64,000 nt of DNA from contig CANNSB010000003.1 of assembly GCA_947510165.1 (NCBI GenBank), forward strand, positions 89,762-153,761. Reading direction: 5' to 3'. Positions within the stretch are counted from its first letter, which is position 1; every line of letters begins with the position of its first letter. The position numbers and the translations under genes were made by a program. Origin of the DNA: an uncultured Clostridia bacterium. GTDB lineage: Bacteria > Bacillota > Clostridia > Oscillospirales > Ruminococcaceae. Below are positions 48,271 through 64,000 of this stretch, in pieces. Under the pieces are notes generated by a model. The model was not told the DNA's origin, did no database searches, and saw only the letters and a list, made by a program, of their open reading frames with translations.

Positions 48271-48288
48271 CATTGTGAGGTGAATATA

Positions 48289-49017
48289 ATGAAAAAAAAT
48301 TTAGTTGATATAAATAAGGTTTTTTTAATATTGGGGGCATTTATTTTATGTGTATTTATTATATCTTATTTATTTCCTATTGTTGGTAGTGGTCTTGATA
48401 CAAATACAAATCAATCCTCTATCTCTAGTTCGTCAAATAATATATTAGAGAATAACAGTAGTTTAAATAATTCAAGTAATATAAATGATAGTAGTGATGT
48501 AGATCATCTTAATTTAAATGATACTAGTAGTGTAGATGATAGCACTCACAGTGGCATCGTTCAGTCAGGTAAAAATAAAAATAATAAGGCTTATATGATT
48601 GATGAAATTATGGAAATACAAAGACTTTCTTATTTATTTGTATATTCTAATTTAGAAGAAAAGCAATTGGCGTTGTCTTTAGATGAATATATTAAAAAAT
48701 CTTTAACTTTAATATATTCAAGTTATAATGTAATAGATACAAATATTATAGATATATCGACAAAATATGTTGATGTTTTGATGAATGAATTAATTATTGA
48801 ACTTAAAGAAGATAAATTGAAAAATTCTTTTAAATTTAACAATATTAGTAGTAATGACTTTTTACGGGAAAAAGCTTTACTAGATAGACAAGAAGACATG
48901 TTAGAGATAAAAGAAAAACAATTAAAATATCAATTAAAATTATTAATAAGGTCATCAGGGTCAGTGTACAATTATAGTGTTTTTAAAAATATATTGGATA
49001 GTATAGAACTTGATTAA
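48289..49017 (+). CDS. Single-TM protein with Ser/Asn linker and helical domain, unknown
   Basis: This encodes 242 residues from the ATG at 48289 with GAGGTGA upstream. The layout is a short basic N-terminus, one TM (about 10-32), a Ser/Asn/Asp-rich linker (35-90) and a helical C-terminal domain (95-242) with a charged coil near the end (LLDRQEDMLEIKEKQLKYQ). The shape resembles the gene at 2819, but I see no sequence similarity. It lies just upstream of the injection-system promoter on the same strand; any link is speculative. Confidence 0.55.
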   Translation: MKKNLVDINKVFLILGAFILCVFIISYLFPIVGSGLDTNTNQSSISSSSNNILENNSSLNNSSNINDSSDVDHLNLNDTSSVDDSTHSGIVQSGKNKNNKAYMIDEIMEIQRLSYLFVYSNLEEKQLALSLDEYIKKSLTLIYSSYNVIDTNIIDISTKYVDVLMNELIIELKEDKLKNSFKFNNISSNDFLREKALLDRQEDMLEIKEKQLKYQLKLLIRSSGSVYNYSVFKNILDSIELD

Positions 49018-49086: not shown

Positions 49087-49115
49087 TTGACATATAAAAT
49101 TATATATGATAATAT
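49087..49115 (+). promoter_or_regulatory. Promoter of the contractile-system cluster
   Basis: TTGACA (49087-49092), a 17-base spacer and TAATAT (49110-49115) with an upstream TG form the strongest promoter-like sequence in this part of the window. It leaves a leader of about 155 bases before the sheath-like gene. The leader contains an imperfect hairpin and a copy of CGATAATAAT, also found just upstream of the -35. Confidence 0.65.
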
Positions 49116-49278
49116 TTATATAGATTAACAATTTTTTTATTTGTAGTATTATTGGCATTAAAGTTTTTAAATATTGTCCGATAATAATATTGATAATGTT
49201 CCCAAAATTTATAAAATGTAAGTTTTATTTTTATAAAATTTACTCTTATGTGATAAACAAATGAAAGGTGAGCTGTTA

Positions 49279-51444
49279 ATGGAAATCATTAAACAAACCA
49301 ATAGAGCTATTTTGTTTGAGGAGATAAATCCTGAAAAACTAGATCTTATGACTTTAGTTGGTGATATAAGAGGAATAGACAGTCTAAATGATGACAAAGT
49401 GAAAGAAATTAATGAAAATCTTCTTGTTTCTAATTTTGAAGAATTCATAAATAAATTCAACCCAAGAGTTTATTCTTTTTTTAATGCCAATACTCAAAAA
49501 GTTATGTATGCACTTAAAAAACCTGATGGTCTACCAGATAGCGCTATAACAGAAATTCCTTTAAATTTATCTAATGATTTTTTAAAAATGCTTATATCTT
49601 TGATAGAAGCAAAAAGATCTCAAGGTACAATTAATGTGGATTTCAAATTTGAGAAAATTCTTGATATGATATCTCCAGCAAAAGTTATGGATGATATTAG
49701 AAGATCAAGAAAAGAACTTCAATATACTTATAATGAGTATACTAATTTAGATGATGAAAATCCACAAAAACTAGACATGGGTGATAAGCTTAATGTTATG
49801 TTTGAAGAAGCTAGTGAAAACTATAATAATATTATGGCGCTTATGCCTCTAGCAATAGAAGATATAAAAACTAGATTATTATTAGGATCAACTGAAGGCG
49901 CTGACGCTAGTGAGCAATTTAAAGCTGGTCTTTTAACAATGGGAGAAGATGGAGAACTTAAAATAATTGAAGCTCCAAAAGAAGAAACAACTTCTTTAGC
50001 TGCTTTGGATGATTCTAATACAGCTGGCTTGGTTCAAGCTCTTTCTGAAGATTATGATGCTATTGCTGAAGATTCTGCTTCACCTTATGTTTCTGATCTA
50101 GTTGTTAGAACATTTTGTCCTTTATCAAATATTACAGCAGAAGAAATAGATTTTGATAAAGAGATAAATAACTATAACACTTATCTACAGTTTTATAAAG
50201 ATTCAAAAGAAGATTTTATTAAAGCTGTTAAACCTTTAATTGAAAAAATTATTGGTGTTAAAATGTTCTTTGATCAATATACAGTTAACAGAGGAATGAA
50301 ACCATCTCTTCTAATATGTAATGTAAAACCTGATGTTATTTCACAGGCTGCTTATATAAAAAGATTAGATACTTTCTTGAAAACTGTTAATGGTAAAAAT
50401 GATTTTAAAAACACTATTTGGTTTGCTATAATGCCTTCTGTTTCTCTTGATGTAGTTTCATCTGGTGGAGTTAAAAGAGAGAGATTTAAAGGAAATAAAG
50501 CTAAAACTGTAGAAAGTAATTCTGTAGAAATAGTTTCTGTTTTATTAGAAACACTTGCTTCTCACAGAGTTCAAATGTTTTTTAATTATGAAAACAGCGA
50601 AGAAGTTACATTTAATGCAATCGCAACTAAAGGTATCAGCCATATAATGAATAAGACTGAATCTTTATCCGGTAAACCTTCTAGTGAGTTTGCTATACCT
50701 TGTATTCCAAACTTTACTATTATACCTAAAGAAAAATCAGGAGTTGTTCTTGACTCTAAAATGCTTATGAATGATTCAGGAACAGCCGAACTATCCAAAG
50801 ATAAAGAAGATATTATGAAACTTTGGTTAGAAGGGGTTTACGTTGGAGCTGCTTATGTTGCTTGTGGACTTGTTGCCGCTTACCAATGTCCAGATTATTT
50901 GAAAGAAAAACTTAAGAAAAATGTTTCTCCGCTTATGCCTGGTGTTCGTTTTGACATTGAGTCTAATGATAATTCTTTACTTATTACTACAAGTATGGCT
51001 AAAGAAATCACTGGATTTACACAAACTGTTAAAGATGAAATTAATAAATTAAGCTTTGGTTTCACATTTTCTTCTGAAAGTTCAAGTATTAATGGACAAT
51101 CAGTTACTAATATAACTGTAAATAAAGCACGTAATTTATCGTTTGATGGATATAATTATGATTCTATCTATAAAACTACTGCAAGTACTTTTATAGAAAG
51201 AATACTAAGATTTACAACTAATGACTTTAAGGAAGATGCAATAGTTAATTTCTTTAGTAATAATCCATCTAGCCAAAAAAGCAAATGGAATGCAGCTAAA
51301 AATTTCCAAAATTCTGTTCTTAAAGATGGAGATGATATTGGATTCAACATTGATCAAGAAGACAATTTGTGTAATGTTGATATATCATTTAATGGAAATA
51401 GTAAAAATCTTGCTGTATCTATCAGTGCAACTACAAGTAAATAA
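49279..51444 (+). CDS. Putative contractile sheath protein (TssC/tail-sheath-like)
   Basis: This encodes 721 residues from the ATG at 49279, with AAAGGTGA upstream. There is no signal peptide or TM. Mid-chain helices (NSVEIVSVLLETLASHRVQM near 416), the Gly/Ala-rich segment GVYVGAAYVACGLVAAYQCP near 528 and the end region (RILRFTTNDFKEDAIVNFF near 640, then an alternating beta strand at the C-terminus) resemble tail-sheath and TssC C-terminal halves. At 721 residues it could match a TssB-TssC fusion. The call is supported by the small tube-like gene that follows. Codon use is somewhat richer in C and G than neighbours, as expected for an abundant structural protein. Confidence 0.55.
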   Translation: MEIIKQTNRAILFEEINPEKLDLMTLVGDIRGIDSLNDDKVKEINENLLVSNFEEFINKFNPRVYSFFNANTQKVMYALKKPDGLPDSAITEIPLNLSNDFLKMLISLIEAKRSQGTINVDFKFEKILDMISPAKVMDDIRRSRKELQYTYNEYTNLDDENPQKLDMGDKLNVMFEEASENYNNIMALMPLAIEDIKTRLLLGSTEGADASEQFKAGLLTMGEDGELKIIEAPKEETTSLAALDDSNTAGLVQALSEDYDAIAEDSASPYVSDLVVRTFCPLSNITAEEIDFDKEINNYNTYLQFYKDSKEDFIKAVKPLIEKIIGVKMFFDQYTVNRGMKPSLLICNVKPDVISQAAYIKRLDTFLKTVNGKNDFKNTIWFAIMPSVSLDVVSSGGVKRERFKGNKAKTVESNSVEIVSVLLETLASHRVQMFFNYENSEEVTFNAIATKGISHIMNKTESLSGKPSSEFAIPCIPNFTIIPKEKSGVVLDSKMLMNDSGTAELSKDKEDIMKLWLEGVYVGAAYVACGLVAAYQCPDYLKEKLKKNVSPLMPGVRFDIESNDNSLLITTSMAKEITGFTQTVKDEINKLSFGFTFSSESSSINGQSVTNITVNKARNLSFDGYNYDSIYKTTASTFIERILRFTTNDFKEDAIVNFFSNNPSSQKSKWNAAKNFQNSVLKDGDDIGFNIDQEDNLCNVDISFNGNSKNLAVSISATTSK

Positions 51445-51471
51445 TAATATTTACTATTTAAAATTGACATC

Positions 51472-51503
51472 AATTATTCTTTAAAAGAATAATTTTTGTG
51501 TAG
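51472..51503 (+). terminator. Hairpin between sheath- and tube-like genes (attenuator?)
   Basis: AATTATTCTTT and AAAGAATAATT are perfect reverse complements at 51472-51494, followed by TTTTTG. It looks like a weak terminator or RNA-stability hairpin in the 124-base gap between the sheath- and tube-like genes. Confidence 0.45.
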
Positions 51504-51568
51504 GAAATATAATTAATATTTTCTACTATATATAAAAAATAATTTAATTAATAAAAGGAGAATTTATT

Positions 51569-52021
51569 ATGGGATTAGTATTAAAAATGGGCGAAGGTAA
51601 AAAAGGAGCTGTATTAAAAGATACGGGTATTGAACTTTTTTCTTGCTCACTAATTAAAGAATTACCAGTTAAATCCGTTGCACCAAGTGCAGACGAAACT
51701 TATAGTATTGCACTTGAGGGCAAAATTTCTAAAAATTCTGAAGGAATAGAGCCAACTTTAAAGACTATTGCTGAATGGGCTAATATGCCTTCTGGTAGTG
51801 TACTTGCTCTTAGAAATATAGAAGTAACTGAAAATACTGGAGATTATACTTATAGAGTTTATACTATGCCTTTAGCATTTGTTTTTTCTTATAAAGAAAC
51901 ATTTGAAGAATCTGAAGGTGAAGGTAGATTTACTCTTGTCATGAGAATGAAAAAAGAACAAAATACATTTTTTAATCTTACTGGTGGATTTGAACAAACT
52001 ACTGAAGATGCAAGAGCTTAA
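51569..52021 (+). CDS. Putative Hcp/tail-tube-like protein
   Basis: This 150-residue all-beta soluble protein begins MGLVLKMGEGKKGAVLKDTG. Strand-rich segments (TYSIALEGKISKN, VLALRNIEVTENTGDYTYRV, MPLAFVFSYKETF, RFTLVMRMKKEQN) fit the closed beta barrel of Hcp and tail tubes, which stack as rings inside a sheath. Size (about 150-170) and position right after the sheath-like gene fit. Sequence identity to known Hcp is low by eye. AAAGGAG precedes the ATG. Codon use resembles the sheath gene. Confidence 0.55.
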   Translation: MGLVLKMGEGKKGAVLKDTGIELFSCSLIKELPVKSVAPSADETYSIALEGKISKNSEGIEPTLKTIAEWANMPSGSVLALRNIEVTENTGDYTYRVYTMPLAFVFSYKETFEESEGEGRFTLVMRMKKEQNTFFNLTGGFEQTTEDARA

Positions 52022-52100
52022 ATCATTTGATTTTAAAATTAAATAACTAGTTTTATTAATGAGCTTTTTATAATAAATCTTATTAACTAAAATTTATAAT

Positions 52101-52131
52101 TATAAAGGGGAGTTTTATTCTCCCCTTTATA
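52101..52131 (+). terminator. Strong hairpin after the tube-like gene
   Basis: A perfect 12-bp stem (52101-52112 with 52120-52131), with core GGGGAG/CTCCCC and a seven-base loop, lies in the 135-base gap before the J-domain gene. The T-tract is poor. It may give partial termination or protect the upstream mRNA, keeping sheath and tube levels above those of downstream genes. Confidence 0.6.
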
Positions 52132-52156
52132 TAATATAAGCGAGGAATTTGTTTGT

Positions 52157-52594
52157 ATGAAAACATATTATGAAATTTTAAATATTTCAGTTAATGCAAA
52201 AGATTCTGAAATAAAAAATTCTTATAGAAAATTGGCAAAAAAACATCACCCTGATTTAAATCCTGGAGATAAGGAAGCGGAAAAAACTTTCAAGTTAATT
52301 AGCGAGGCTTATGAAACTTTAAGTGATTCAAATAAACGAGAAAAATATGATCATTTATTATCAAATCCAAAAGGTAAAAAAGCAGTTTCTTCAAATAAAA
52401 AATCTGATAAATCTCAAAATGTTGAGTTTAATGGATTTGGTTTTGATCCTAGAAACACATCTGGTGGATTTGAAAGTTTTTTTGGTTTTACTCCAAAAGG
52501 CAATAAAGTTGAACAAAAAGAAAAAGAAGAAAAAAAAGGTCCAGTAGATACAAGTGCTGCATTTGAAAGTTTTTTCGGTTTTAAAGGCAAATAA
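52157..52594 (+). CDS. J-domain co-chaperone with repeated FESFFGF motif
   Basis: This 145-residue protein has a complete J domain (1-66) with the HPD motif at 31-33, needed to stimulate an Hsp70 ATPase. It lacks the Gly/Phe, zinc-finger and substrate domains of housekeeping DnaJ. Instead a Lys-rich linker carries FESFFGF twice (105-111 and 136-142), plus a shorter FNGFGF at 91-96. These look like short binding motifs. The Hsp70/actin-like gene in the same cluster (58580) is the natural partner. GAGGAA precedes the ATG. Confidence 0.85.
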
Positions 52595-52610
52595 ATGGAG
52601 TTGATAATTT

Positions 52611-53357
52611 TTGAAAATATTTAGCAAAGAGTTCTTCAAAAAGTTTTATTTAGATATACTTCTCTTTGTATTTGCGTTGATTGTTAGTGTTTTATTCATA
52701 AAAAATATTCCTTTACTTATCATTGTTATATTAATTTTATGGATAATAGGAGTTTTTAAATGTTTTAAAGAAATTAAAAATTATAATTTATATAAAAAAT
52801 TTAAAGATGAAGAAAAAACGCATTACTTATCTTCCGGAGATTTTGATTTAAATTCAGTTGATAATTACTTTGATGATGGAATTAATAACATATTAAATGA
52901 AACCAATGAAAAAGAAAAAATAAATTTAAATAAAGAAAATAATATTGATAATAAATTTAATGAGTTAGAAAATAATTTAGTTAAAAATTATAAAGCTAAT
53001 ATAATAAAAACAGATTATATATCTAAAATTTTAATGTTAAATGAATATGGTGCACCTATAAAAGAGTGGAATATAACTGGAATGGTATCTGTTATTATTG
53101 GGAAAGATAATAATATAGATGATGTTGATATTGATTTATCTAGTTCTGTATATTCTGCTTTAATTAATAGTCAGCATGCAATTTTAAATTATTCTAATAA
53201 AGGTTGGTTTATAGAAGATCACTATTCTGACAATGGAATATTAATAGAAAAAAGTTATAATAAGGGTAAACTAGATAAAATTGATTCTGGAGAACCTTAT
53301 AAAATAGATTTTGGTGATATTATTTATATTGCTAATACAAAATTATTAATTGTTTAA
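52611..53357 (+). CDS. Membrane-anchored FHA-domain protein
   Basis: This 248-residue protein from a TTG start (TGGAG upstream) has two adjacent TMs (about 13-31 and 33-50), an acidic cytoplasmic linker and a C-terminal FHA domain (about 155-248). FHA features include VIIGKDNNIDDVDIDL, the recognition Ser and His in INSQHAIL and the SDNGILI turn. The usual Gly-Arg is Gly-Lys here, so phospho-Thr binding may be weak. It probably recruits a partner to the membrane. FHA proteins regulate type VI secretion in Gram-negatives. Confidence 0.75.
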   Translation: MKIFSKEFFKKFYLDILLFVFALIVSVLFIKNIPLLIIVILILWIIGVFKCFKEIKNYNLYKKFKDEEKTHYLSSGDFDLNSVDNYFDDGINNILNETNEKEKINLNKENNIDNKFNELENNLVKNYKANIIKTDYISKILMLNEYGAPIKEWNITGMVSVIIGKDNNIDDVDIDLSSSVYSALINSQHAILNYSNKGWFIEDHYSDNGILIEKSYNKGKLDKIDSGEPYKIDFGDIIYIANTKLLIV

Positions 53358-53380
53358 ATTATTATAAGGAGTTGTTTAAA

Positions 53381-53869
53381 TTGGGTCTAGTTAGATGTAA
53401 AAATGGACATATGTTTAGTGGAAGACGATATGGATCTATATGTCCATATTGTAATATTGATACTTCTGTAGAAGATAGCACTGATTTAACCGGTGGGGTT
53501 AATATTGATGAAGAACTTATGAAAGATGAAGTTCATCCTGTTTGTGGGTGGATTGTTTGTATAGAGGGAGCAAGAAAAGGTAAAGACTATAAGGTTCATG
53601 ATGGTAAAAATTTTGTAGGTAGATCTGATGATATGGATATTCAAATTTTAGGAGATAATAATATTTCTAGAAAAAATCATGCTATAATTATTTATGATAA
53701 AAAGAAAAGAGAAACAGTTTTACTTCCTGGTGATTCTTCTGGTATAGCTTATTTAAACGATGAAGCCGTATACACACCATCTACTCTTTCATCTTATGAC
53801 ATTATAGAATTAGGTAATAGTAAATTTTTATTTGTACCATTTTGTGGAGATCATTTTGAATGGGAATAA
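53381..53869 (+). CDS. Zinc-ribbon plus FHA-domain protein
   Basis: This encodes 162 residues from the TTG at 53381 (AAGGAG at 53366-53371). An N-terminal zinc ribbon, CKNGHMFSGRRYGSICPYC, precedes a canonical FHA domain (about 65-160) with FVGRSDDMDIQI, ISRKNHAIIIYD and a Gly-rich turn. All phosphothreonine-contact positions (Arg, Ser, Arg, Asn/His) appear present, unlike the membrane FHA protein upstream. It is soluble and likely binds a phosphorylated component of this system. Confidence 0.85.
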   Translation: MGLVRCKNGHMFSGRRYGSICPYCNIDTSVEDSTDLTGGVNIDEELMKDEVHPVCGWIVCIEGARKGKDYKVHDGKNFVGRSDDMDIQILGDNNISRKNHAIIIYDKKKRETVLLPGDSSGIAYLNDEAVYTPSTLSSYDIIELGNSKFLFVPFCGDHFEWE

Positions 53870-53889
53870 TTATATAGGAGAGAATCGAT

Positions 53890-54801
53890 ATGTTGCTTGA
53901 TGGACAGTTATTATATCTTCTGCTAATTATTATAGGAGTTATTGCTGTTATCTATATAATATTATATTTATCTAGTCTTTCGCAAAAAAAAGAGGAAAAA
54001 ATTTCAAATGATTTATTAGATAATGAAGATAATTTTGAAAATGACGAAAAAGATAATAGATTTTTAGATATTGGCGTTTCAAAAAGTATTGGAGATTCTG
54101 AAACTCAGGTAGAAAATGTAGATGTATTAATAAATAATGATTGTTGTATGGCTGTTTTAACAGATGGAATAACAGAAAATTCATATTGTAAAACAGCCAG
54201 TGAAATTGCATCTAAATCTTTTAAAAATATTTTTGAACGTCAAGAAAATTTTGAAAATATAAATTTTTTTCTAAATAAAATGTTTAATATAGCAAATCAT
54301 AATATACTTAGCGTATTGTCTGAAAAAGGAAAGTCCACTGCGGCTTGCGCTATTATTAATAGAGGAAAATTATACTATGGTTTAGTTGGTGAAAGTAAAA
54401 TTAGTGTTTATAGAAATAATTCTTTAATTCAGATAAGCGTTGGGCATACTATAAGTGCCTATGTTAAACAAGAATTTGAAAAAGGAAAACTTTCTAGAAA
54501 AAAAACACTTTCCATGTTAAATGAAAATACTTTATATAATTATTTAGGTGTTGATGGTTTTAAAAATGTGGAATTATTGGAAGTTCCAGTAGAATTAAAA
54601 TCGGGGGATATAGTAGTTATAATGAGTAATGGAGTTTTCAATACTATTAGTTGCATTGAAATAGAAAAATATCTAGGTCAACTATCTAATTGTGCTACAA
54701 AAAGCAGAAGAATAATTGGTGCTATTGATAGTTTTGATTATTTAGAAAAAGGAAATTCTAGTATTATACTAATAAAATATAACGGACGACAAGTTAGTTA
54801 A
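53890..54801 (+). CDS. PP2C-like protein with N-terminal TM (degenerate metal site)
   Basis: This 303-residue protein has a TM at about 7-29, an acidic linker (35-58), then a PP2C-type fold (58-300). Recognisable motifs are AVLTDGITEN (Asp92-Gly93), STAACAIINRGKLYYGLVGE and IVVIMSNGVFN. The second-metal Asp of the usual SDG motif is Asn247, and the late Asp-Asn pair appears as GNSSIIL. This suggests reduced or no phosphatase activity. It is in the same operon as two FHA proteins, as PppA and Fha are in type VI loci, but no Ser/Thr kinase is seen in the window. Confidence 0.75.
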   Translation: MLLDGQLLYLLLIIIGVIAVIYIILYLSSLSQKKEEKISNDLLDNEDNFENDEKDNRFLDIGVSKSIGDSETQVENVDVLINNDCCMAVLTDGITENSYCKTASEIASKSFKNIFERQENFENINFFLNKMFNIANHNILSVLSEKGKSTAACAIINRGKLYYGLVGESKISVYRNNSLIQISVGHTISAYVKQEFEKGKLSRKKTLSMLNENTLYNYLGVDGFKNVELLEVPVELKSGDIVVIMSNGVFNTISCIEIEKYLGQLSNCATKSRRIIGAIDSFDYLEKGNSSIILIKYNGRQVS

Positions 54802-54815
54802 GGATGCTGTGAAAT

Positions 54816-56540
54816 ATGAGAAAAGAAAATTCAAAATTTGTTACAGGTTTTGTTTCTGAAGCAGGTGCTCAACTTAAAAATAGAGACTATTTTGCTTTTG
54901 TAGAGCTGGATAACTTTGCTTGTTATGTAATAGCTGATGGAATAGATGATGATCAAGATTTAGAAAGTGCTAAAATTGCTGTGACTAGCGTAATTAGAAG
55001 CTTTTCTGAATATCCTTCTATGAGAAAAAATATAATAAAAGGATATTTAAATTTAGCAAATAGAGAGTTAATAGGGGAAAGTATGGATGTTAAATTGAAA
55101 TCCTCTATAACATTAGTTGTTACAAATTATGTGAAAATGGTTTATGCTGTTGCCGGAAATACCAGGTTTAATCTTTTTGGTGATGGAATTTTAAAGCAAG
55201 CTTCTCTAGATCAATCTTTAAGTCAAGATATGAATCTTTATGGAAATCTACCACTAGATAAAATTGCACAACATGAAGAGAGACATAATCTGTATTCATA
55301 TCTAGGTCAGACAGAAGGTTTTAGTCCTTTTATATCTAAAAAAATATCACTTTCTGATGGAGATATTTTAGCTTTATTTACAAAAGGCGTATGGGAAAAT
55401 ATCGATACAGGAGAAATGATTACTTCTGTTGGATCTGGTGCAGAACCGCAAGATGTACTGGATTCAGTAGAAGAAACTATATTATCCAGACAAACATTAG
55501 ATTTAACTGATTATACGTTAGCTATTATTTTTATTGATAAAATTTTTTCTGATCCTAATGCAGAAAAAAAGAAAAAAACAATAAGAACTGTGGTTATTGT
55601 TGCTCTTATTTTATCAATAGTTGTAACTATAGTTGTTTTTGTGTTTTTAGCTATAAGAAATAAAAATAAAGAAAAATTAGAAGATTATATTCAAAACTCT
55701 ACTAATTATGTTGATTCTAATAATATTCCTAGAGCTATTGAAGAATATGATAAAGCAATTGAACAAGCTCAAAAGTTAGGTTCTAAGTTACTTAAAGATG
55801 AATTAAATATAAAAAAGACAATACTTGAAAGTATTGTTCAAGCAGATGAAAAAATAAATAGTAAAGATTTTTCTGAGGCAGAATTGCTATTAGTTAAAGC
55901 TAGGGAGATATCTAGAGAAAATGATAATATAGCTTCAAGTTATATAGATAATAAACTTCAAATAGTTAAGGGGTTTATTAAAGTACATGATGCGCTTGCT
56001 TTAGGTGATGAATTATTAGAATTAGGTGAATTATTAAAAGCTGAGGCTAAATTCTTAGAGGCTAGAAAAGAAGCGGCCAATATTTTTTATATTGAAGGAA
56101 GAGAGCAGGCAATGCAAAATCTTGAACAAGTTTATCAACAACAAACTCTTTTAAAAGAAGAAATTGATAGTAAAGTTGAGATGGAAGCTGCTGCTATAGA
56201 ATTTATTAAAAAAGGTGATCAAAGTTTTCTTGATAATGACTATGATAGTGCAGAAATGTTTTATAGAATGGCTAAAGATAAATTTGATAGCGCGGATGTA
56301 AAAGACAAATCTTCTTCTATACAAGAAAAAATTGATTTGTCATTGAAAAAAATTGCAGATGTAAATGCTAAAATTGATCAAGCAACTGCATATATACAAG
56401 AAGGAGATCAATTTGTAATTATGCAAGATGTTCCAAACGCTAGAAATGCATATATTCTTGCTAGAAATATATACACTGAACTTAATCATCAAAAAGGACT
56501 TAAAGAGATTCAGGATAAATTAGATATGTTGGGGTCATAA
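54816..56540 (+). CDS. PP2C-like domain fused through a TM to TPR-like helical repeats
   Basis: This 574-residue protein begins with a cytoplasmic PP2C-like domain (1-245): LKNRDYFAF, VIADGIDD (Asp41-Gly42), and GNTRF where GDSR is usual. The SDG position is TKG (189-191) and the late motif is TDYTLAI. Two metal-binding Asp are therefore replaced. A TM at about 256-277 follows. The remainder (280-574) is helical, with TPR-like units such as IPRAIEEYDKAIEQAQKLGS and YDSAEMFYRMAKDKF, predicted to lie outside the membrane. It may link a cytoplasmic signal to an envelope scaffold. Confidence 0.75.
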   Translation: MRKENSKFVTGFVSEAGAQLKNRDYFAFVELDNFACYVIADGIDDDQDLESAKIAVTSVIRSFSEYPSMRKNIIKGYLNLANRELIGESMDVKLKSSITLVVTNYVKMVYAVAGNTRFNLFGDGILKQASLDQSLSQDMNLYGNLPLDKIAQHEERHNLYSYLGQTEGFSPFISKKISLSDGDILALFTKGVWENIDTGEMITSVGSGAEPQDVLDSVEETILSRQTLDLTDYTLAIIFIDKIFSDPNAEKKKKTIRTVVIVALILSIVVTIVVFVFLAIRNKNKEKLEDYIQNSTNYVDSNNIPRAIEEYDKAIEQAQKLGSKLLKDELNIKKTILESIVQADEKINSKDFSEAELLLVKAREISRENDNIASSYIDNKLQIVKGFIKVHDALALGDELLELGELLKAEAKFLEARKEAANIFYIEGREQAMQNLEQVYQQQTLLKEEIDSKVEMEAAAIEFIKKGDQSFLDNDYDSAEMFYRMAKDKFDSADVKDKSSSIQEKIDLSLKKIADVNAKIDQATAYIQEGDQFVIMQDVPNARNAYILARNIYTELNHQKGLKEIQDKLDMLGS

Positions 56541-56567
56541 GAATATTTTATAAAGGAGGATTTTAAA

Positions 56568-57869
56568 GTGGAAACTCAAAAAAAGCCAGATTTAAATGAT
56601 ATAAATGATACAGAAGAAAAAATTATTTTAAAAGAAGTTTTAAATAATATTTTTTCTAATCTCCAGACTACTACAGGAAAATATATTTCAAATTTACAAA
56701 ATAGAGTTTACGATGAACTTTTATTTGAAGATCTATTTAGTTTATATACAACTATTGCATCCAAAGATGATTATGATTTATCAAATAAATTTTTTTTTCC
56801 TCTGGATAATTCTAAACTTAATGACCCTGTTTTTAATTTAGAAGATATAAAAAATAGTGTTGCTCGTAATAAACCTCATAATATATTTGATGTATATATT
56901 GATTGTAATTATGAAGATTTTTATGATATTATATCTTCGGATAGAGAATTTACAGGCATTATATCTACTGATATTAAGGAATATAAAGCTACATTTATTC
57001 TGAGACAAAATTTTTCATATATTAAAATTGTAGAGGAATTATATAACATATTTATATCAAATTCTGTTGATTGGAAGACTATAAATTTTCCATATATATG
57101 GAGATTTGCTGATGTTGTTATACTTAGATATGATAATATATATGACCATGATGATATAGGAGTAGATTTAAATCAGTCAGAGACTATAAGGTCTATATCA
57201 ATTGATTTTGAAGAATTTTCTTCTATAATTAAATATGGTATGGTGCCACTCTGGAATTTATCATCTAATACCTATACACTTTCTAGTTCTCCCGTCCCTG
57301 TTGGAGAAATAGTTAATTATGAACATAAAATAGATACTTCTCAACTGGAAAATGCTGGAGGTGTTTTATTAGAATTAGGAAACTATGTCATTAGTAATAT
57401 ACGTAGAAATAATTATGATATAGTTGTTTCTATTAAAGAAAGTAAGTTAGACTGGATTTTATATAATGTTGTTTCTAATTCTGTTGGAATTTCTGATTTT
57501 GGATATCCTATATTTTCTAATGCAACAACTGAAAGCTATAGTAATAGTTTTGCAACTATGAAATCAAAAAATATAAAAACAAAAGCAGAATTATTTAAGC
57601 TTGTCAATTCTTATGAACTTGAATCTTTTATTGTATTCGAAGGTTTTGAAATACAACAAAATTATGATTATAGTAGTTTATTTTTAAATTTAAATTATTT
57701 TATTGAAGATAATATTAGAGATATGTCAAGTAAAAATACTATGATTTTAAAATTTATAAAAGTTAAATCTAAGAATAAATTTTATTTTTATGAAGATATT
57801 ATGAATTTTATTGTTTCAGAAATTCAATTATACTTTCCGGAGTTTAAATGTGTAGGTGAAGTAGAGTGA
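56568..57869 (+). CDS. Unrecognised cluster protein, possible baseplate component
   Basis: This 433-residue soluble protein starts at GTG with AAAGGAGG upstream. It has no TM, signal peptide or motif I recognise. The middle contains IWRFADVVILRYDNIYDHDD and a beta-rich stretch around 230-270, and the C-terminus alternates helix and strand. It overlaps the next gene by four bases, so the two are made together, which often means a complex. By position it could be a TssF-like baseplate wedge, but this is inference from context only. Confidence 0.45.
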   Translation: METQKKPDLNDINDTEEKIILKEVLNNIFSNLQTTTGKYISNLQNRVYDELLFEDLFSLYTTIASKDDYDLSNKFFFPLDNSKLNDPVFNLEDIKNSVARNKPHNIFDVYIDCNYEDFYDIISSDREFTGIISTDIKEYKATFILRQNFSYIKIVEELYNIFISNSVDWKTINFPYIWRFADVVILRYDNIYDHDDIGVDLNQSETIRSISIDFEEFSSIIKYGMVPLWNLSSNTYTLSSSPVPVGEIVNYEHKIDTSQLENAGGVLLELGNYVISNIRRNNYDIVVSIKESKLDWILYNVVSNSVGISDFGYPIFSNATTESYSNSFATMKSKNIKTKAELFKLVNSYELESFIVFEGFEIQQNYDYSSLFLNLNYFIEDNIRDMSSKNTMILKFIKVKSKNKFYFYEDIMNFIVSEIQLYFPEFKCVGEVE

Positions 57870-58561
57870 GTTATATTTGGGATATTACTATAAAGTTAAA
57901 AAGAGCAGGAATTGATTTATCAACTATAACTTTTATTCAACCAGAAGTATATAGTCCTTATATGGAAGTTTCTTTAGAAAATTTAAATTATATTGAAGAT
58001 TTAGAAGTTAAAGAAATTGAAGTTAATGCTTTATATAGATTTGAAAATATATTTGAACCTCTTTTACATTTAGACTTTAAAGGATCTAAAGAACTTCAAA
58101 CAGTTGTTTTCAATTTAATATTAAATTTTTTAATTCAATTGGATTTAAAACAAGGACTTTGTATTAGAGAGTTTAGTAAAATTTTTATATCTAAGGAAAT
58201 GGATAGTGGGTTATTTGGTAATGATATAAAAGAAAATATTAAAGTTTTTAATATGGATGAAAAAGATATACTTTTAGATAGTGTATATAATTATTATTCT
58301 ACAAATGTTAATATAAACATTTTTAATGTAATTTTAAAAAATATATTTAAAAATGTTATAACATATTTGGATAAAGAAAAAGAATTTGGAATATTTATTT
58401 ATATTGGAGAAAAACAAACTAATATATATGAAAAAAAACTTGATGTTTTGATTTCTTTATTTTTACCAATATATTTTAAACCATATATATGTTGGGATAA
58501 ACACTTCCCAGTATTAGGTCTTGATAAAACTATGATGATAGAACAAAATGTTTTGTTTTAA
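57866..58561 (+). CDS. Unrecognised cluster protein translationally coupled to the 56568 gene
   Basis: This 231-residue soluble protein starts at a GTG overlapping the previous stop codon. Features are PYMEVSLENLNYIEDLE, a segment EVNALYRFENIFEPLLHLDF and a helical middle (VVFNLILNFLIQLDLKQGLC). No family is recognised. Coupling with the 433-residue protein suggests a stoichiometric partner; a TssG-like baseplate role is only a guess. Confidence 0.45.
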   Translation: MSYIWDITIKLKRAGIDLSTITFIQPEVYSPYMEVSLENLNYIEDLEVKEIEVNALYRFENIFEPLLHLDFKGSKELQTVVFNLILNFLIQLDLKQGLCIREFSKIFISKEMDSGLFGNDIKENIKVFNMDEKDILLDSVYNYYSTNVNINIFNVILKNIFKNVITYLDKEKEFGIFIYIGEKQTNIYEKKLDVLISLFLPIYFKPYICWDKHFPVLGLDKTMMIEQNVLF

Positions 58562-58579
58562 AATTTAGGAGGTGTTGAA

Positions 58580-61216
58580 TTGAATAATAATAGAATAATA
58601 AAAGACTCTTTGACTAGTAATAGAAAATATGAAAAAAAATATTATTTAAAAAAAGATTTAGAACGAATGACAACTTTTCAACTTAGAGAAATTTGCTTTG
58701 AGCAAAAATTAGCTAAAAGTATAATTTCTCCTTTAGATAAAGAAGATTTAATTAGGTTAATAATGCGATATAGAGGATTGAATGAAAATTCTTTAATACG
58801 AGAATTTTCTCAAGAAGGCATAGAAAGAATACAAAATTTTTTAACATCCGTTAGTATGTCCGTTGAATTTAATAAAGATATAAAAGGACCTTCTATTATT
58901 GTTTCATATTATGGATTAAGAATGGATTCTATAGATGATTTTTCCATAACATATAATGAAAAATTTGCTCAAACTAATGCAATATTAGTTAGTTCTGATA
59001 ATAAAATTTGTGGATTATTTAATATTGAAAGATGCAATAATAATAAAGATTATTTATATATAACTAAATCTAATTATTCATTTGTTCAACAATCAGAAAA
59101 TAAAAATTATAATTTATATTTATTTGAAAAATCTACTTCTGAATTTTTATTTAATTTATATTCTGGGTTTGAAGTTTCAGCTCCCAGTCAAATAAAAGTT
59201 TCTTCTATATCTATACTAGATCTGCATGTCAAGCAACCATTTCAAACCAATTCTCCAATTGTAATTGATTTTGGAACTTCTAATACTTCTGCAGGGGCAG
59301 TAATAGATGAAACAATTTTTGCATCTGTAAAACCAGATATAAAATCGGATTTTACAGATGGAGAAATAAATTATGTAACTTTTATTAATGATTCAAATAA
59401 TAAGTATTTAAAAACACCTATAATTCCTAGTGTTATGGGAGTTGTTAAAATACATGATGAGTATAACATTGAATATTCTTATGGATATGAAGCACTTAGA
59501 ATTTCAGATATTAGTTTGATATCTGAAGATTTTTGTATTTTTTATGATATAAAAAGATGGATATCTGATATTAATAAATATGAAGAAATTACTGATAGAT
59601 ATGGAGCAAGGGTGTATGTTTTACGAAAACAACTTATAGCTAGTTATATAAAATATATATTAGAGATATCTGAACAAAGATTTAAATCAAAATTTAGTAG
59701 AATTGTAATGCCTTATCCTATTAAACAAAGAGAACAGTTCGAAGATTTAACATATAATTTATTTGATGAAAATGCTGGAGTATATATTGAGCTTATGATA
59801 GATGAAAGTGTAGCAACTGTTTATAATACTATTGATAATATTATTAAAGATGATAATTATATTGAGGGAGAAGAATATTCTGCATTAGTATTAGATTGTG
59901 GAGGTGGTACTACAAATTTATCTTCTTGTCAATTTTCTATATTGAATGAACGAGTTTCTTATAAAATAGATATTATTTCTTCTTACGAAAATGGAGATTC
60001 TGATTTTGGCGGAAATAATTTAACTTATATTATAATGCAATTTTTAAAAATATCTATTGTAAAATCTTTATATAAAGATACTGATTTATTGGATTTAAAT
60101 GATATTATATCATCTTTTGATGTAGATATTTTTAGATATGTTGATGAAAACAGTACAAAGGATTTATATTTAAAATTAAATGAAGAATATGAAAAAGCAG
60201 ATAAAATAATGCCAACAAAATTTAAAAATTTTGAAAATGAAAGTAAGGATGTATATTTTAGAATAAAAAACAATTTTTATTTTTTATTTCAGCTTGCAGA
60301 AAGAGTTAAGCATGAATTTTTTAATAACCTTAGTACTTTAAAAATAATTTTATGTGATGTAGTTGATAAAAATGAAAATAATACTATTTTTATGGAAATT
60401 GATAGATGGAAATGTTCTTTCATGGAGAATAATATTTTAATTCCTGTAAAAAAATTTAATGATATAATAATAACGTTTTATGAAGTTGGGAATTTAATTA
60501 AGGGTTCAGTATATGGAATTTTCAAAAGATTTTTTGAAAATTTATATGAAGATGACGTTTTAACTGAATTTTCTATTATTAAGCTAACGGGACTTTCGTG
60601 CAAAATAGATTTATTTAAAGATGCTTTAAAAGAATTTGTTCCTGGAAAAATGGTTCAATTTAAGAGGCAAAATAATGATAGATCAAATAGTTTTGAACTT
60701 AAATTAGGTGTTGTAAAAGGTATGTTAAATTATATAAAATCTAAGGAATATGGGTTTTCTAATTTTAGTATAGAAAATAATATTGCTTCGTTACCATATC
60801 TAATATCTGTTGATACTCATACAGGTAATGAAAAAATTCTTATCCATTCATTAGATAAGCATAGAAAAAAAGGGAGTATATCTAGGTCAATGGATAATTT
60901 GACGGTTAAACTATATCTAAAAGATACAGATGAAAATACAAGATGTGAATATGTTTATAGTTGTACCTATGAAGATTTTAATTATATAACTTATGAAGAA
61001 TTAGAAGGTAGTTTAGGAGATATAATAGAGCAACATGATACAGATAGTATTATTGCTGAAGAAGTTAAATTTTTTGTTTGGGCAAATGATGAAAAATGGG
61101 GATTTCACGTTTTACCTATACTTAGATATGAGGGTGAATTAATGTCTGGAAATAATACATTTTTTTCATTTGAAAATGAAACATGGGTTAAAAATTTTTT
61201 TGATGGTCTTAAATAA
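58580..61216 (+). CDS. Hsp70/actin-like ATPase with SAP-like N-terminal domain
   Basis: This 878-residue protein starts at TTG with AGGAGG upstream. Residues 29-66 (MTTFQLREICFEQKLAKSII and LDKEDLIRLIMRYRG) look like a SAP/LEM-type helix-extension-helix. The ATPase fold shows phosphate-1 VIDFGTSNTSAGAV near 228, PSVMGVV, phosphate-2 LDCGGGTTNLSS near 438 and an adenosine-type motif IIKLTGLSCKIDLF near 670. The C-terminal part is beta-rich but not a standard Hsp70 substrate domain. With the J protein at 52157 it forms a plausible dedicated chaperone pair for assembling or recycling the apparatus. GTG or ATG starts elsewhere are not favoured. Confidence 0.8.
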   Translation: MNNNRIIKDSLTSNRKYEKKYYLKKDLERMTTFQLREICFEQKLAKSIISPLDKEDLIRLIMRYRGLNENSLIREFSQEGIERIQNFLTSVSMSVEFNKDIKGPSIIVSYYGLRMDSIDDFSITYNEKFAQTNAILVSSDNKICGLFNIERCNNNKDYLYITKSNYSFVQQSENKNYNLYLFEKSTSEFLFNLYSGFEVSAPSQIKVSSISILDLHVKQPFQTNSPIVIDFGTSNTSAGAVIDETIFASVKPDIKSDFTDGEINYVTFINDSNNKYLKTPIIPSVMGVVKIHDEYNIEYSYGYEALRISDISLISEDFCIFYDIKRWISDINKYEEITDRYGARVYVLRKQLIASYIKYILEISEQRFKSKFSRIVMPYPIKQREQFEDLTYNLFDENAGVYIELMIDESVATVYNTIDNIIKDDNYIEGEEYSALVLDCGGGTTNLSSCQFSILNERVSYKIDIISSYENGDSDFGGNNLTYIIMQFLKISIVKSLYKDTDLLDLNDIISSFDVDIFRYVDENSTKDLYLKLNEEYEKADKIMPTKFKNFENESKDVYFRIKNNFYFLFQLAERVKHEFFNNLSTLKIILCDVVDKNENNTIFMEIDRWKCSFMENNILIPVKKFNDIIITFYEVGNLIKGSVYGIFKRFFENLYEDDVLTEFSIIKLTGLSCKIDLFKDALKEFVPGKMVQFKRQNNDRSNSFELKLGVVKGMLNYIKSKEYGFSNFSIENNIASLPYLISVDTHTGNEKILIHSLDKHRKKGSISRSMDNLTVKLYLKDTDENTRCEYVYSCTYEDFNYITYEELEGSLGDIIEQHDTDSIIAEEVKFFVWANDEKWGFHVLPILRYEGELMSGNNTFFSFENETWVKNFFDGLK

Positions 61217-61233
61217 AAAGAGTAGGTGATTTT

Positions 61234-62016
61234 TTGTTTTCATATAAATATCCTGTTTTTGAGCGTGGAAGAGTATTAAAACTTGAAATGTTAGATTATT
61301 TACGAGATATACCTATAAATTTTATTGATACTTTTTATGGATATTATTCTGATGGGATTATTAATGGATTTAATGTTACAAGTGAAGATAATATAATAAT
61401 AATCTCAAAAGGAATTATTAAATTTAATGGAAAAATGTATGTTTTAAATGAAGATATTAGTGTTTTTTGTGATATTTTAGGAGAAAATTTAGTTTTAAAA
61501 ATACGATTTTATGATACAGATGACACAGAAAAAGATTTTGCTGAATATAAGACAGAAATTCTTTTTGATACAGAATTTGATTTAAGTGAAAATGATATAG
61601 AAATATGTAGATTTGATCTTAGAGAAGGTGCAAAATTAAGATTTGATTATGTTGATTTATACGATATGACTACCCAATATGATACTGTAAATTTGATTAA
61701 TGTATTATATAGTGGATACAATCATCCAACTATATCTCCAAAAATTACTCGTTTTTTTGCTACAGAAGCTTTGAAAGTTGGAATTACAGAATCAATTGAT
61801 ATTTCTTTTTGTATGATGTGTATAAATGGGGATAAACCATTGGATATTGAAGTTATAAAAACTTATATATCCAATAGATTAGGTGTTTCAACTATTCACG
61901 CTGATAACAATCAAATATTTAAATTTATGTGTAAAATATTTGATAATATAAAGAATAATAATAAAGCTTCAGGAAAGCGAAAAGGTTTATCTAATAAGAC
62001 AATTATAGTGGATTAA
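61234..62016 (+). CDS. Putative baseplate/tail-fibre-attachment-like protein
   Basis: This 260-residue protein starts at TTG. The N-terminal 100 residues (YPVFERGRVLKLEMLDYLRD, then YYSDGIINGFNVTSEDNI and IIKFNGKMYVLNEDI) resemble a beta-rich phage baseplate or fibre-attachment module, in which a GF-x-V turn and an NG-K-Y-x-L strand recur. A helical C-terminus ends in a basic tail (KASGKRKGLSNKT). I recall similar proteins in clostridia carrying unhelpful names. The structural role is inferred from shape and neighbours. Confidence 0.45.
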   Translation: MFSYKYPVFERGRVLKLEMLDYLRDIPINFIDTFYGYYSDGIINGFNVTSEDNIIIISKGIIKFNGKMYVLNEDISVFCDILGENLVLKIRFYDTDDTEKDFAEYKTEILFDTEFDLSENDIEICRFDLREGAKLRFDYVDLYDMTTQYDTVNLINVLYSGYNHPTISPKITRFFATEALKVGITESIDISFCMMCINGDKPLDIEVIKTYISNRLGVSTIHADNNQIFKFMCKIFDNIKNNNKASGKRKGLSNKTIIVD

Positions 62017-62046
62017 ATTTAATAAAATTAGGAAGGAGGGTCTTTT

Positions 62047-63156
62047 TTGATTAATTCAGACATTGTTAAGGTTTTTATTGATAAACATTGGAATAAAAAA
62101 GAGAAGCAAGTTTTAGAAAACGTTAAAAATTATATAATAGAAAATAGAATTGAATTGTCTAAAAAATTTTCTGATATCTTAAAAGAACTTTTTTTAAAGA
62201 TAATTGATGGTCAAAATAACCAAACTTTTTCTAGCTTGAAATATATAGATTGTTGTTTTTTATATACTAGCATATATGAGAAAAATCCTATTTTTCGCAT
62301 ATATGCATATGATGTTGACACTGTTGATAAATCTAGTGATTTATATGTAGATTATAATTGTTCATGGTTACTAAATGAGTTTAATGATATTGTTGAACTT
62401 TTTATAAGAGAAAAAAATAAATATAATATTATGTTAACATCTTCTATTATTGAAGTAATTAGAAGACTTTCTATTCCAAAATTTGTTTATTCTTTTTATT
62501 GTTTTATGAAATATTCAATTAGAAATATTTTTTATTTTGAAGAGTTAGAGTTAATAAATAAAGAAGAAAAAGTTGATATATTTTGCGGAGAATATTTAAA
62601 AAACACTTTTAATGTTTATAGAATTTATGAAAAAAGTGATCTTATAAATATTAAAATGAAAAACATTAAAAATATTGAAAATAATAAATCTCTTTTTGGT
62701 GTATTTAATAAAATGTTGATATCTAATATTGATTTTTCTAATATCGATTTAAGGTTTTCAAGATTTAATAAATGTGTTTTTAATAACTGTACATTTTCTA
62801 ACAATGAATTAGATGACGTAGAATTTATTCAATGTCAAATTTCTAGTACAAATTTTTCAGATGTTAAAATGTATGGAATTTCTTTTTCTAAATGTGTTAT
62901 TCAAGATTCAATTTTTTATAATATAAATTATAATGAAAATTATCTTGATAAAAATGTTACAAAATTAACTTTTAAAGATGCTACTTTTGAAATGTGTGCT
63001 TTAAAATCCACTATTTTTGAAAATGTTTCTTTTCCTAATGCTAAATTTGAAAATTCAGCAATGAATGATGTTAAAATTCTTAATTCAGATTTAACTGATT
63101 CTGGAATCGATAATATGGCAACAGTTAATTTAGATCTGCATAATACACAACTTTAA
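62047..63156 (+). CDS. Pentapeptide-repeat protein
   Basis: This 369-residue protein starts at TTG with GGAAGGAGGG upstream. An N-terminal helical domain (1-215) is followed by about 25 pentapeptide repeats (A/N-x-L/F-x-x pattern; FSNIDLRFSRFNKCVFNNCT and later FENVSFPNAKFENSAMND) that should fold into a right-handed beta-helix. One interruption occurs near 296-310. Pentapeptide proteins occur as structural spikes, effectors or DNA mimics. Position between the baseplate-like and Imm11-like genes makes an effector or delivery role possible. Confidence 0.8.
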   Translation: MINSDIVKVFIDKHWNKKEKQVLENVKNYIIENRIELSKKFSDILKELFLKIIDGQNNQTFSSLKYIDCCFLYTSIYEKNPIFRIYAYDVDTVDKSSDLYVDYNCSWLLNEFNDIVELFIREKNKYNIMLTSSIIEVIRRLSIPKFVYSFYCFMKYSIRNIFYFEELELINKEEKVDIFCGEYLKNTFNVYRIYEKSDLINIKMKNIKNIENNKSLFGVFNKMLISNIDFSNIDLRFSRFNKCVFNNCTFSNNELDDVEFIQCQISSTNFSDVKMYGISFSKCVIQDSIFYNINYNENYLDKNVTKLTFKDATFEMCALKSTIFENVSFPNAKFENSAMNDVKILNSDLTDSGIDNMATVNLDLHNTQL

Positions 63157-63175
63157 AAATATTAGGAGGTATTTT

Positions 63176-63694
63176 GTGGATTATTACATATTAAATATAA
63201 GTTCAGATGTAAAAAAGACAATAAAGTCACATGATTGTAGTAATATATTTAAAGGGAAAATTCTTACTTTAGATAATCTAGATGGTTTAGATTATTTAAG
63301 AGCTGCAAAATATACTAAAGATAAAAATACAGAAGAGAGCGATATTATTGTAAATCCTATATATATGATATCAAATAAATTTAAAAATTTAATTAAAGAG
63401 TATTATATAGAATTTGAAACTATCGCTATTCAATTTTTAGATCAAAATAATGAAACTCTTTTATATTGGGTTCCAGCAGTAGAAGATCTTGATTGTATTT
63501 CTGATAGAGCTATTTTTAATCCTGATAAGACGATTAAAGAGTTATATATTGATAGAACAAAAATACAAGATAAAAAGATATTTAAGATAAAAAATGTTTT
63601 AGAACCTTTTCTTATAGTTGATTTATATATTGCAGAAAAGATACTACAATCAGATTTATATGGAGTATTATTAAGAAAGGTAAGGGTAGTTTAA
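63176..63694 (+). CDS. Imm11/DUF1629-like protein, possible immunity or adaptor
   Basis: This 172-residue protein starts at GTG with TAGGAGG upstream. The C-terminal half (SDRAIFNPDKTIKELYIDRT, KIFKIKNVLEPFLIVDLYIA, LQSDLYGVLLRKV) resembles the DUF1629/Imm11 family found next to polymorphic toxins. No signal peptide or TM is present. If correct, it could protect the cell from an effector encoded by the preceding pentapeptide gene or beyond the window. A similar fold may also serve as an effector adaptor. The assignment is from pattern memory only. Confidence 0.5.
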   Translation: MDYYILNISSDVKKTIKSHDCSNIFKGKILTLDNLDGLDYLRAAKYTKDKNTEESDIIVNPIYMISNKFKNLIKEYYIEFETIAIQFLDQNNETLLYWVPAVEDLDCISDRAIFNPDKTIKELYIDRTKIQDKKIFKIKNVLEPFLIVDLYIAEKILQSDLYGVLLRKVRVV

Positions 63695-63695
63695 G

Positions 63696-64000
63696 ATGGA
63701 CGAGTTAAAAAAAGATAAAGATAAAGATTATAACTTAGATGAATCAACTCCGTCTGACTCAGTAGATGGTTCGGAATCTGGGGAAATTCCGCAAGAACCA
63801 ACAGGATTACCTCCAGACACAGAAGAAACAACAGTTTATGGAGAAGATGTAGCTGAAGAAGAGTCTGTTGATGATGGATTAGAGGAAGAAGAAATTCCAG
63901 AAGAACCAACACAACCAGCTCCAGATACAGAAGAAACAACAGTTGATGGAGAAGATGTAGCTGAAGAAGAGTCTGTTGATGATGGATTAGAGGAAGAAGA
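63696..64000 (+). CDS. Glu-rich tandem-repeat protein (cut by window end)
   Basis: An ATG one base after the preceding stop codon opens a frame that runs off the window (at least 101 residues). A Lys/Asp N-terminus is followed by a very acidic, Pro-containing 36-residue repeat, two copies of which are seen (residues 30-65 and 66-101). The segment DTEETTV is conserved in both. It is likely disordered. Similar acidic Pro/Glu spacers occur in linker regions of large secreted or effector proteins, so a bigger domain may follow outside the window. Confidence 0.75.
   Translation, partial: MDELKKDKDKDYNLDESTPSDSVDGSESGEIPQEPTGLPPDTEETTVYGEDVAEEESVDDGLEEEEIPEEPTQPAPDTEETTVDGEDVAEEESVDDGLEEE
63783..63998 (+). 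repeat. Two 108-bp tandem coding repeats
   Basis: Units 63783-63890 and 63891-63998 are nearly identical at the base level; differences cluster in the first 30 bases and one codon (TAT versus GAT). The array may continue past the window. High identity implies recent duplication and probable length variation between strains. Confidence 0.9.

Follow-up and report, generated by a model that had tools for sequence, protein, structure and literature searches.

The 64,000-nucleotide stretch of an uncultured Ruminococcaceae genome analysed here (hereafter the window, on contig CANNSB010000003.1 or C3) ends in a gene cluster that very probably encodes a chromosomal contractile injection system (CIS) of Firmicutes. 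This interpretation is based on the sheath and tube folds predicted for two of its products, on VgrG-like spikes, a PAAR-like tip and spike-fused toxins in related clusters, and on a conserved gene order. As the initial annotation of the window had it, all the genes that it named form a one-direction cluster, on the + strand from position 49261 to the window end, and reading of the open reading frames (ORFs) indicates one tight, near-gapless run. The genome comprises 1.32 Mb in 19 contigs. The window end (64000) is also the end of contig C3; the cluster is not finished there, and one further ORF runs off it.

Sheath and tube

The sheath ORF is 727 residues long. The 721-residue product annotated initially, which starts at 49279, is likelier, because 48 of the 80 best relatives align from residue 7 and 6 of 80 from residue 1. 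This protein most likely has a sheath fold. Rows 1-27 of the structural alignment obtained with its AlphaFold model, a low-confidence one for which 58 of 80 sequences were usable as input, are all contractile-tail entries. As for the product of the gene at 51569 (72 of 102 sequences usable), it is, by its model, a tube of Hcp/gp19 fold, 48 of the 50 VIA-align rows being tail or type VI secretion system (T6SS) entries by title. Structural comparison thus matched both of the folds that the initial annotation had proposed for these two products. Sequence-only proof of the sheath was also attempted and abandoned: hmmsearch of the PDB with an 11-sequence profile returned only two NS1 chains (E 0.017-0.018). 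Genome G424 (loci L126 and L125) has two successive sheath-tube pairs within one cluster, with sheaths that differ from each other.

Distribution and gene order

Of the 495 pattern stretches detected in a scan of species-genome contigs, 389 encode sheath relatives. The 80 best of these 389 are described here; all are from Firmicutes, with titles including Paenibacillus, Brevibacillus, Clostridium, Aneurinibacillus, Pelosinus, Propionispira and Lachnospiraceae. In samples that each include the window's own genome, the sheath was found in 4 of 100 related genomes, in 9 of 392 sampled from the class and in 6 of 300 sampled from the phylum. The diverged sheath of genome G725 has relatives in 29 of the 151 genomes of its order (itself included), close and distant matches mixed.

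Gene order was counted in 79 loci from other genomes (L027 to L105; the 4.7-kb L026 was excluded). Ten genes follow one order in 71 of them: sheath, tube, DnaJ, FHA, FHA, PP2C, PP2C, p433, p231 and the Hsp70/actin-like ATPase. Such recurrence indicates that the gene set is more than chance. At least seven of the ten genes are in order in 76 of the 79 loci; several of the remaining loci without all ten genes apparently end early, and L079 has only the sheath and a displaced DnaJ gene. Although the tail-derived folds would fit a remnant prophage tail retained by chance, this alternative is extremely unlikely. The gene order is the same across genera, from Paenibacillus to Clostridium, the reading frames are open and the toxins are polymorphic. 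Furthermore, no match to the sheath was found among 50,697 phage records, and none of 86 pattern stretches in viral contigs is a sheath relative. A gene for a von Willebrand A-domain protein is present in 58 of 81 sources, usually just upstream of the sheath gene and often on the opposite strand; none was seen in the window.

A minimal subtype was found in G725, G815 and G799. It retains the DUF4280-type gene, Imm11, sheath, tube, spike, p433, p231, ATPase and p260, and no DnaJ, FHA or PP2C gene was present within the stretch examined. In contrast, G853, of the same order as G725, has the main type with these genes. The DnaJ, FHA and PP2C modules pointed out in the initial annotation are therefore a feature of most members of the family but are missing from the three minimal-subtype clusters.

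Spike, tip and toxins in related clusters

The cluster of G020, from another genus of the same family, comprises the same genes as that of the window, except that the ATPase gene precedes p433 and p231. It continues with genes for two Phage_GPD/Phage_base_V spike proteins, pentapeptide, Imm11 and DUF4280 proteins and a 2394-residue spike-Rhs-Ntox30 protein. This spike module was seen, with variations, in longer stretches of six further main-type genomes. The hub (spike) profile matches the T6SS protein VgrG (9rce, 1.5e-22), Pvc8 (2e-15), Afp8 (2.3e-13) and a Streptomyces CIS spike. All 20 cluster genomes tested encode the PAAR-like DUF4280 tip, against none of 14 control genomes. The extended locus, to which the initial annotation had looked for baseplate and spike genes, hence provided VgrG-like spikes and a PAAR-like tip in relatives, but gp25 and AAA+ genes were not found in the cluster.

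A named toxin domain was identified in three of eight proteins in the toxin position, namely a WHH nuclease, a BURPS668_1122-type deaminase and a YwqJ-type deaminase. The nuclease and both deaminase families are C-terminal to GPD-type N-termini, and Ntox30 lies behind Rhs.

The pentapeptide and Imm11-like proteins of the window, both noted initially, belong to the spike module. The Imm11 match of the window copy (17.3 bits) is below the cut-off of 22.1 bits and that of the G020 copy above its cut-off. Imm11 adjoins DUF4280 in five of eight main-type clusters, the exceptions being two of the six further genomes and G853, and it adjoins a DUF4280-type gene in all three minimal-subtype clusters. 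Both proteins are likely spike or cargo adaptors, a role that fits them better than immunity because the toxins beside them differ between genomes. For the Imm11-like gene in particular, immunity was considered and not preferred, as the toxins next to it vary and its usual neighbour is the tip gene.

Chaperone, FHA and PP2C genes

The DnaJ domain, both FHA domains and the pentapeptide repeats exceed the Pfam cut-offs; the Stp1/PP2C matches of both PP2C-like genes (Table 1) are below cut-off in Pfam and NCBIfam. FHA2 is strongly conserved, forming only 5 clusters at 62% identity, and the motif C-x-N-G-H...C-x-x-C is present in 81 of 81 members. By eye, FHA1 and both PP2C-like proteins, i.e. three of the four FHA/PP2C proteins, have apparent membrane segments. 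The ATPase motifs DFGTSNT and CGGGTTN, read directly, fit the Hsp70/actin superfamily, and the two nucleotide-binding motifs are found in 47 and 51 of 52 family members. A Pfam search with the ATPase gave no significant match, and its PDB matches are weak, with Hsp70s at E 0.19-0.35 ranked behind two unrelated chains. In two minimal-subtype genomes, G815 (L147+L148, 16680-25191) and G799 (L149+L150, 16675-24280), three extra Hsp70-like genes lie between p231 and the main ATPase gene; by eye, their products start with GIDFG or GIDLGTT.

A kinase gene inside the operon was sought and discarded, as the 79 loci, followed for up to 10 kb beyond the sheath, contain no HRD-type motif. Ser/Thr kinase genes are present outside the cluster in six of six genomes, and in G725 one of them is about 8 kb past it. 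The same 79 loci were screened, over the same distance, for the Walker-A motif of a ClpV or CDC48-like AAA+ protein. Each of the eight pattern matches falls in the product of a cluster gene that had been assigned otherwise, and no credible candidate was found in these loci, the rest of the genomes not having been searched.

DnaJ, Hsp70-like, FHA and PP2C proteins make up much of the operon, as would befit an intracellular chaperone and phospho-signalling module with tail-like folds that injects nothing. This is very unlikely, since a spike, a PAAR-like tip and toxins fused to spikes have their place in delivery, and since the minimal subtype, without DnaJ, FHA and PP2C, still has sheath, tube and spike.

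Proposed mechanism and points against it

If the cluster encodes a CIS, p433, p231 and p260 might form the baseplate together with the spike. The sheath would polymerise round the tube, and its contraction would drive the tube into a neighbouring cell together with spike and cargo. Loading, folding or recycling of the sheath or spike might be the task of DnaJ and the Hsp70/actin-like ATPase, which would stand in for an AAA+ unfoldase. Through the two FHA and two PP2C proteins, assembly or firing could depend on Ser/Thr phosphorylation by a kinase whose gene lies elsewhere. The least certain step is whether the machine would be fired from inside the cell, as in T6SS, as suggested by the apparent membrane segments in FHA1 and the PP2C-like proteins.

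A released or lysis-dependent particle, such as an extracellular CIS (eCIS), a cytosolic CIS as in Streptomyces, or a tailocin, is a possible but rather unlikely alternative to a cell-anchored machine. It is at odds with these membrane segments, with the lack of a credible Walker-A ATPase in the 79 loci, and with gp25 in the cluster and phage relatives not having been found.

Several observations weigh against a CIS. The sheath model is poor (predicted local distance difference test, pLDDT, 48.5; predicted template modelling score, pTM, 0.52), and Foldseek found no match to it at E <=0.001. Profile-profile comparison (hhalign) of the sheath with 81 phage sheaths gave nothing (0.1%). In control runs, three other phage sheaths reached 98-99%, whereas a Pfam sheath of 763 residues, entered as one sequence, was missed too (5.6%), so that the negative result tells little. 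The candidate baseplate proteins have no fold recognised by sequence. No significant match was obtained for p433 in Pfam, PHROGs or the PDB or for p260 in Pfam or the PDB, p231 had no PDB match up to E 10, and a PHROGs search with ten cluster proteins gave nothing usable. Nor do these three match TssF, TssG or TssK significantly in sequence comparison.

To our knowledge, gp25 is present in every known CIS; here, a sequence profile (PF04965) did not find it in eight of ten cluster genomes, and the two matches lie in G020 on another contig than the cluster and in G788 on another contig than the DUF4280 match. Most of the GPD matches of the toxin-position proteins, seen in seven of eight, are below the Pfam cut-off. 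The spike of the window's genus has no Pfam match, and the locus is not seen whole in the window's genome, as the spike and tip genes are at other contig ends. As a whole, the CIS interpretation is a computational prediction. Of separate note, a second DUF4280 gene and a gp25 gene of G020 lie about 13 kb apart (C8:78613-91642), perhaps in a different contractile system or a prophage.

Gene content of the window's cluster

The genes are listed in Table 1. Directly upstream of the cluster, positions 48280-49017 encode a Ser/Asn-rich protein with a hydrophobic N-terminus and without significant family match.

Table 1. Genes of the predicted contractile injection cluster, in window coordinates
Predicted product	Position	Strand	Remarks
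Contractile sheath protein (candidate)	49261..51444	+	727 aa ORF; likely start 49279, giving 721 aa
Inner tube protein, Hcp/gp19 fold by its model, 150 aa	51569..52021	+	
J-domain protein	52157..52594	+	Pfam DnaJ 4.8e-27; HPD motif in 85/85 family members
FHA1, hydrophobic N-terminal segments (by eye)	52611..53357	+	Pfam FHA 2.2e-8
FHA2, zinc-ribbon-like plus FHA	53372..53869	+	Pfam FHA 3.3e-6, Yop-YscD_cpl 3.6e-8
PP2C-like phosphatase, hydrophobic N-terminus (by eye)	53890..54801	+	NCBIfam Stp1 1.5e-19, below cut-off
Second PP2C-like protein, hydrophobic segment, repeat-like helical C-terminus (by eye)	54816..56540	+	NCBIfam Stp1 3.7e-14, below cut-off; weak TPR
p433, conserved; proposed baseplate part	56568..57869	+	retained in minimal subtype, where it adjoins the spike gene (E 8e-8 to 4e-5)
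p231, conserved; proposed baseplate part	57866..58561	+	4-base overlap with p433; retained in minimal subtype
Hsp70/actin-superfamily ATPase, 878 aa	58580..61216	+	two nucleotide-binding motifs
p260, conserved; proposed baseplate part or connector	61234..62016	+	retained in minimal subtype
Pentapeptide-repeat protein, spike module	62047..63156	+	Pfam Pentapeptide_4 3.9e-20; relatives in spike module of several other genomes
Imm11-like protein, spike module	63176..63694	+	Pfam Imm11 0.0032, below cut-off
Acidic Pro/Glu-repeat ORF, start only, low-complexity	63696..63998	+	open at contig end

The window's genus and a possible link with the host

In the window's genome, a 725-residue spike (E 8.3e-15 to the hub profile) is encoded at the other end of C3, and an end of contig C11 carries the tip gene (DUF4280), which follows the hydrophobic end of a repeat-rich ORF. 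The metagenome-assembled genome AC_RUM01 (G002), of the same genus, has matching contig ends, with the spike gene on a further contig. Contigs of both genomes end inside the matching Pro/Glu-repeat ORF, where both assemblies break, and the cluster and the tip gene are presumably adjacent. On C11, the DUF4280 gene and a hairpin-like stretch are closely followed by three tandem genes (L114:11560-15957), the products of which combine collagen-like repeats and a Phage Tail Collar domain with a hydrophobic segment at the N-terminus. The gene after the spike gene of the genus (L139:6996-7772) codes for an M23 peptidase, likewise with an N-terminal hydrophobic segment, that could open the wall for the device.

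Upstream of the spike gene, the window's genus encodes Pro/Tyr-rich, disordered-looking proteins, which may resemble known tyrosine-phosphorylated effectors. One of 662 residues has eight matches to a tyrosine/phenylalanine motif that was chosen after the sequence was seen (shuffle mean 0.27; 0 of 500 shuffles reach 8) and 30 PxxP motifs (shuffle mean 18.2; 0 of 500 reach 30). Its G002 counterpart has five and 23, respectively, numbers reached in 0 and 10 of 500 shuffles. The number of independent cases is lower, as three of the eight motifs are copies of a single repeat and two have phenylalanine as their last residue. Motif density is 1.21 per 100 residues against 0.109 in 83 other ORFs, one ordinary ORF among them reaching 1.32, and in the proteins beside the 662-residue one the excess is weaker or absent.

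Host-signalling-like motifs beside a spike gene are suggestive only of host targeting. It is conceivable, if doubtful, that the machine of this genus is turned on the animal and injects the Pro/Tyr-rich proteins into epithelial cells of the host, where their tyrosine and SH3-type proline motifs would recruit host signalling proteins. The part of PMC11092275 used here describes AC_RUM01 as a 1.30-Mb Arctic char gut bacterium, dominant in empty guts, which forms dense clusters in the mucus lining the gut epithelium and was found in 29 of 35 wild fish. The cluster would then offer a fish-gut symbiont a possible route to act on host cells, and, if this is true, a Firmicute contractile weapon would serve as a symbiosis device in a vertebrate.

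Comparison with known systems

The hallmarks of the CIS superfamily are found in the cluster and its relatives: a contractile sheath (by a low-confidence model), a tube of Hcp/gp19 fold, and a hub-spike with a pointed tip. By definition, the cluster is neither a T6SS nor an eCIS, because gp25, ClpV or another AAA+ protein and TssJLM were not found in it; for TssJLM, this refers to Pfam matches among the scanned proteins of the window and G020 clusters, the genomes not having been searched. The T6SS-like injection system of the initial annotation is therefore supported, but not as a T6SS in the strict sense. The cluster would nevertheless work like a T6SS or eCIS.

The likeness to T6SS comprises the sheath and Hcp-type tube folds, the VgrG-like spike, the PAAR-type tip, and Rhs and spike-fused toxins. 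Regulation through FHA and PP2C proteins, as proposed for the cluster, is found in some T6SS. The T6SS sheath is made of TssB plus TssC, whereas the cluster has a single sheath protein of about 721 residues. The cluster also differs in its DnaJ and Hsp70-like ATPase, in that gp25/TssE, ClpV and TssJLM were not found there and TssF/G/K are unrecognisable, and in its Firmicute hosts. It also points to a contractile machine in which DnaJ/Hsp70-type proteins take the place of an AAA+ unfoldase.

With eCIS (the Photorhabdus virulence cassettes, PVC, and the antifeeding prophage, Afp) and the Streptomyces CIS, the cluster shares sheath, tube and spike folds, Afp8, Pvc8 and the Streptomyces spike being relatives of the hub profile. 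Unlike in these systems, no gp25 or AAA+ gene was found in the cluster, and it has FHA and PP2C proteins, most of which seem to contain membrane segments. The fusion of toxins to spike-type N-termini, as in relatives of the cluster, never occurs for toxins of PVC systems according to the portion of PMC3482391 considered, which also counts firmicutes among the carriers of T6SS-type toxins. Other CIS types are already known in Bacillota, where the haloarchaeal Cis11 has its nearest relatives (PMC11566945, in the section consulted); Tc toxins in Paenibacillus are treated in the relevant part of PMC12381145, and PMC5014421 did not contain any of five host terms sought in it.

In topical literature searches we found no paper describing the cluster, in agreement with its initial designation as under-described; bioRxiv and most subscription papers were outside the scope, so that priority is not established. 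In 2016, when T6SS had been described only in Gram-negative bacteria and PAAR-like genes were known in Gram-positives, an unknown phage-like translocation system of Gram-positives was proposed from DUF4280 and Phage_GPD genes (PMC5349215). The same proposal was made in 2021 in PMC8651086, the portion of which used here states that conserved eCIS or T6SS genes are not present near such orphan genes. These Gram-positive PAAR-like genes pointed to a missing machine, for which the cluster supplies candidate parts. The question has become testable, because culturable Paenibacillus and Clostridium species carry the cluster. The orphan pairs belong to the same tip and spike families in Firmicutes but come without a named apparatus, to which the cluster adds a predicted sheath, a predicted tube and a conserved operon, making it a strong candidate for the injection system that the authors of both studies suspected.

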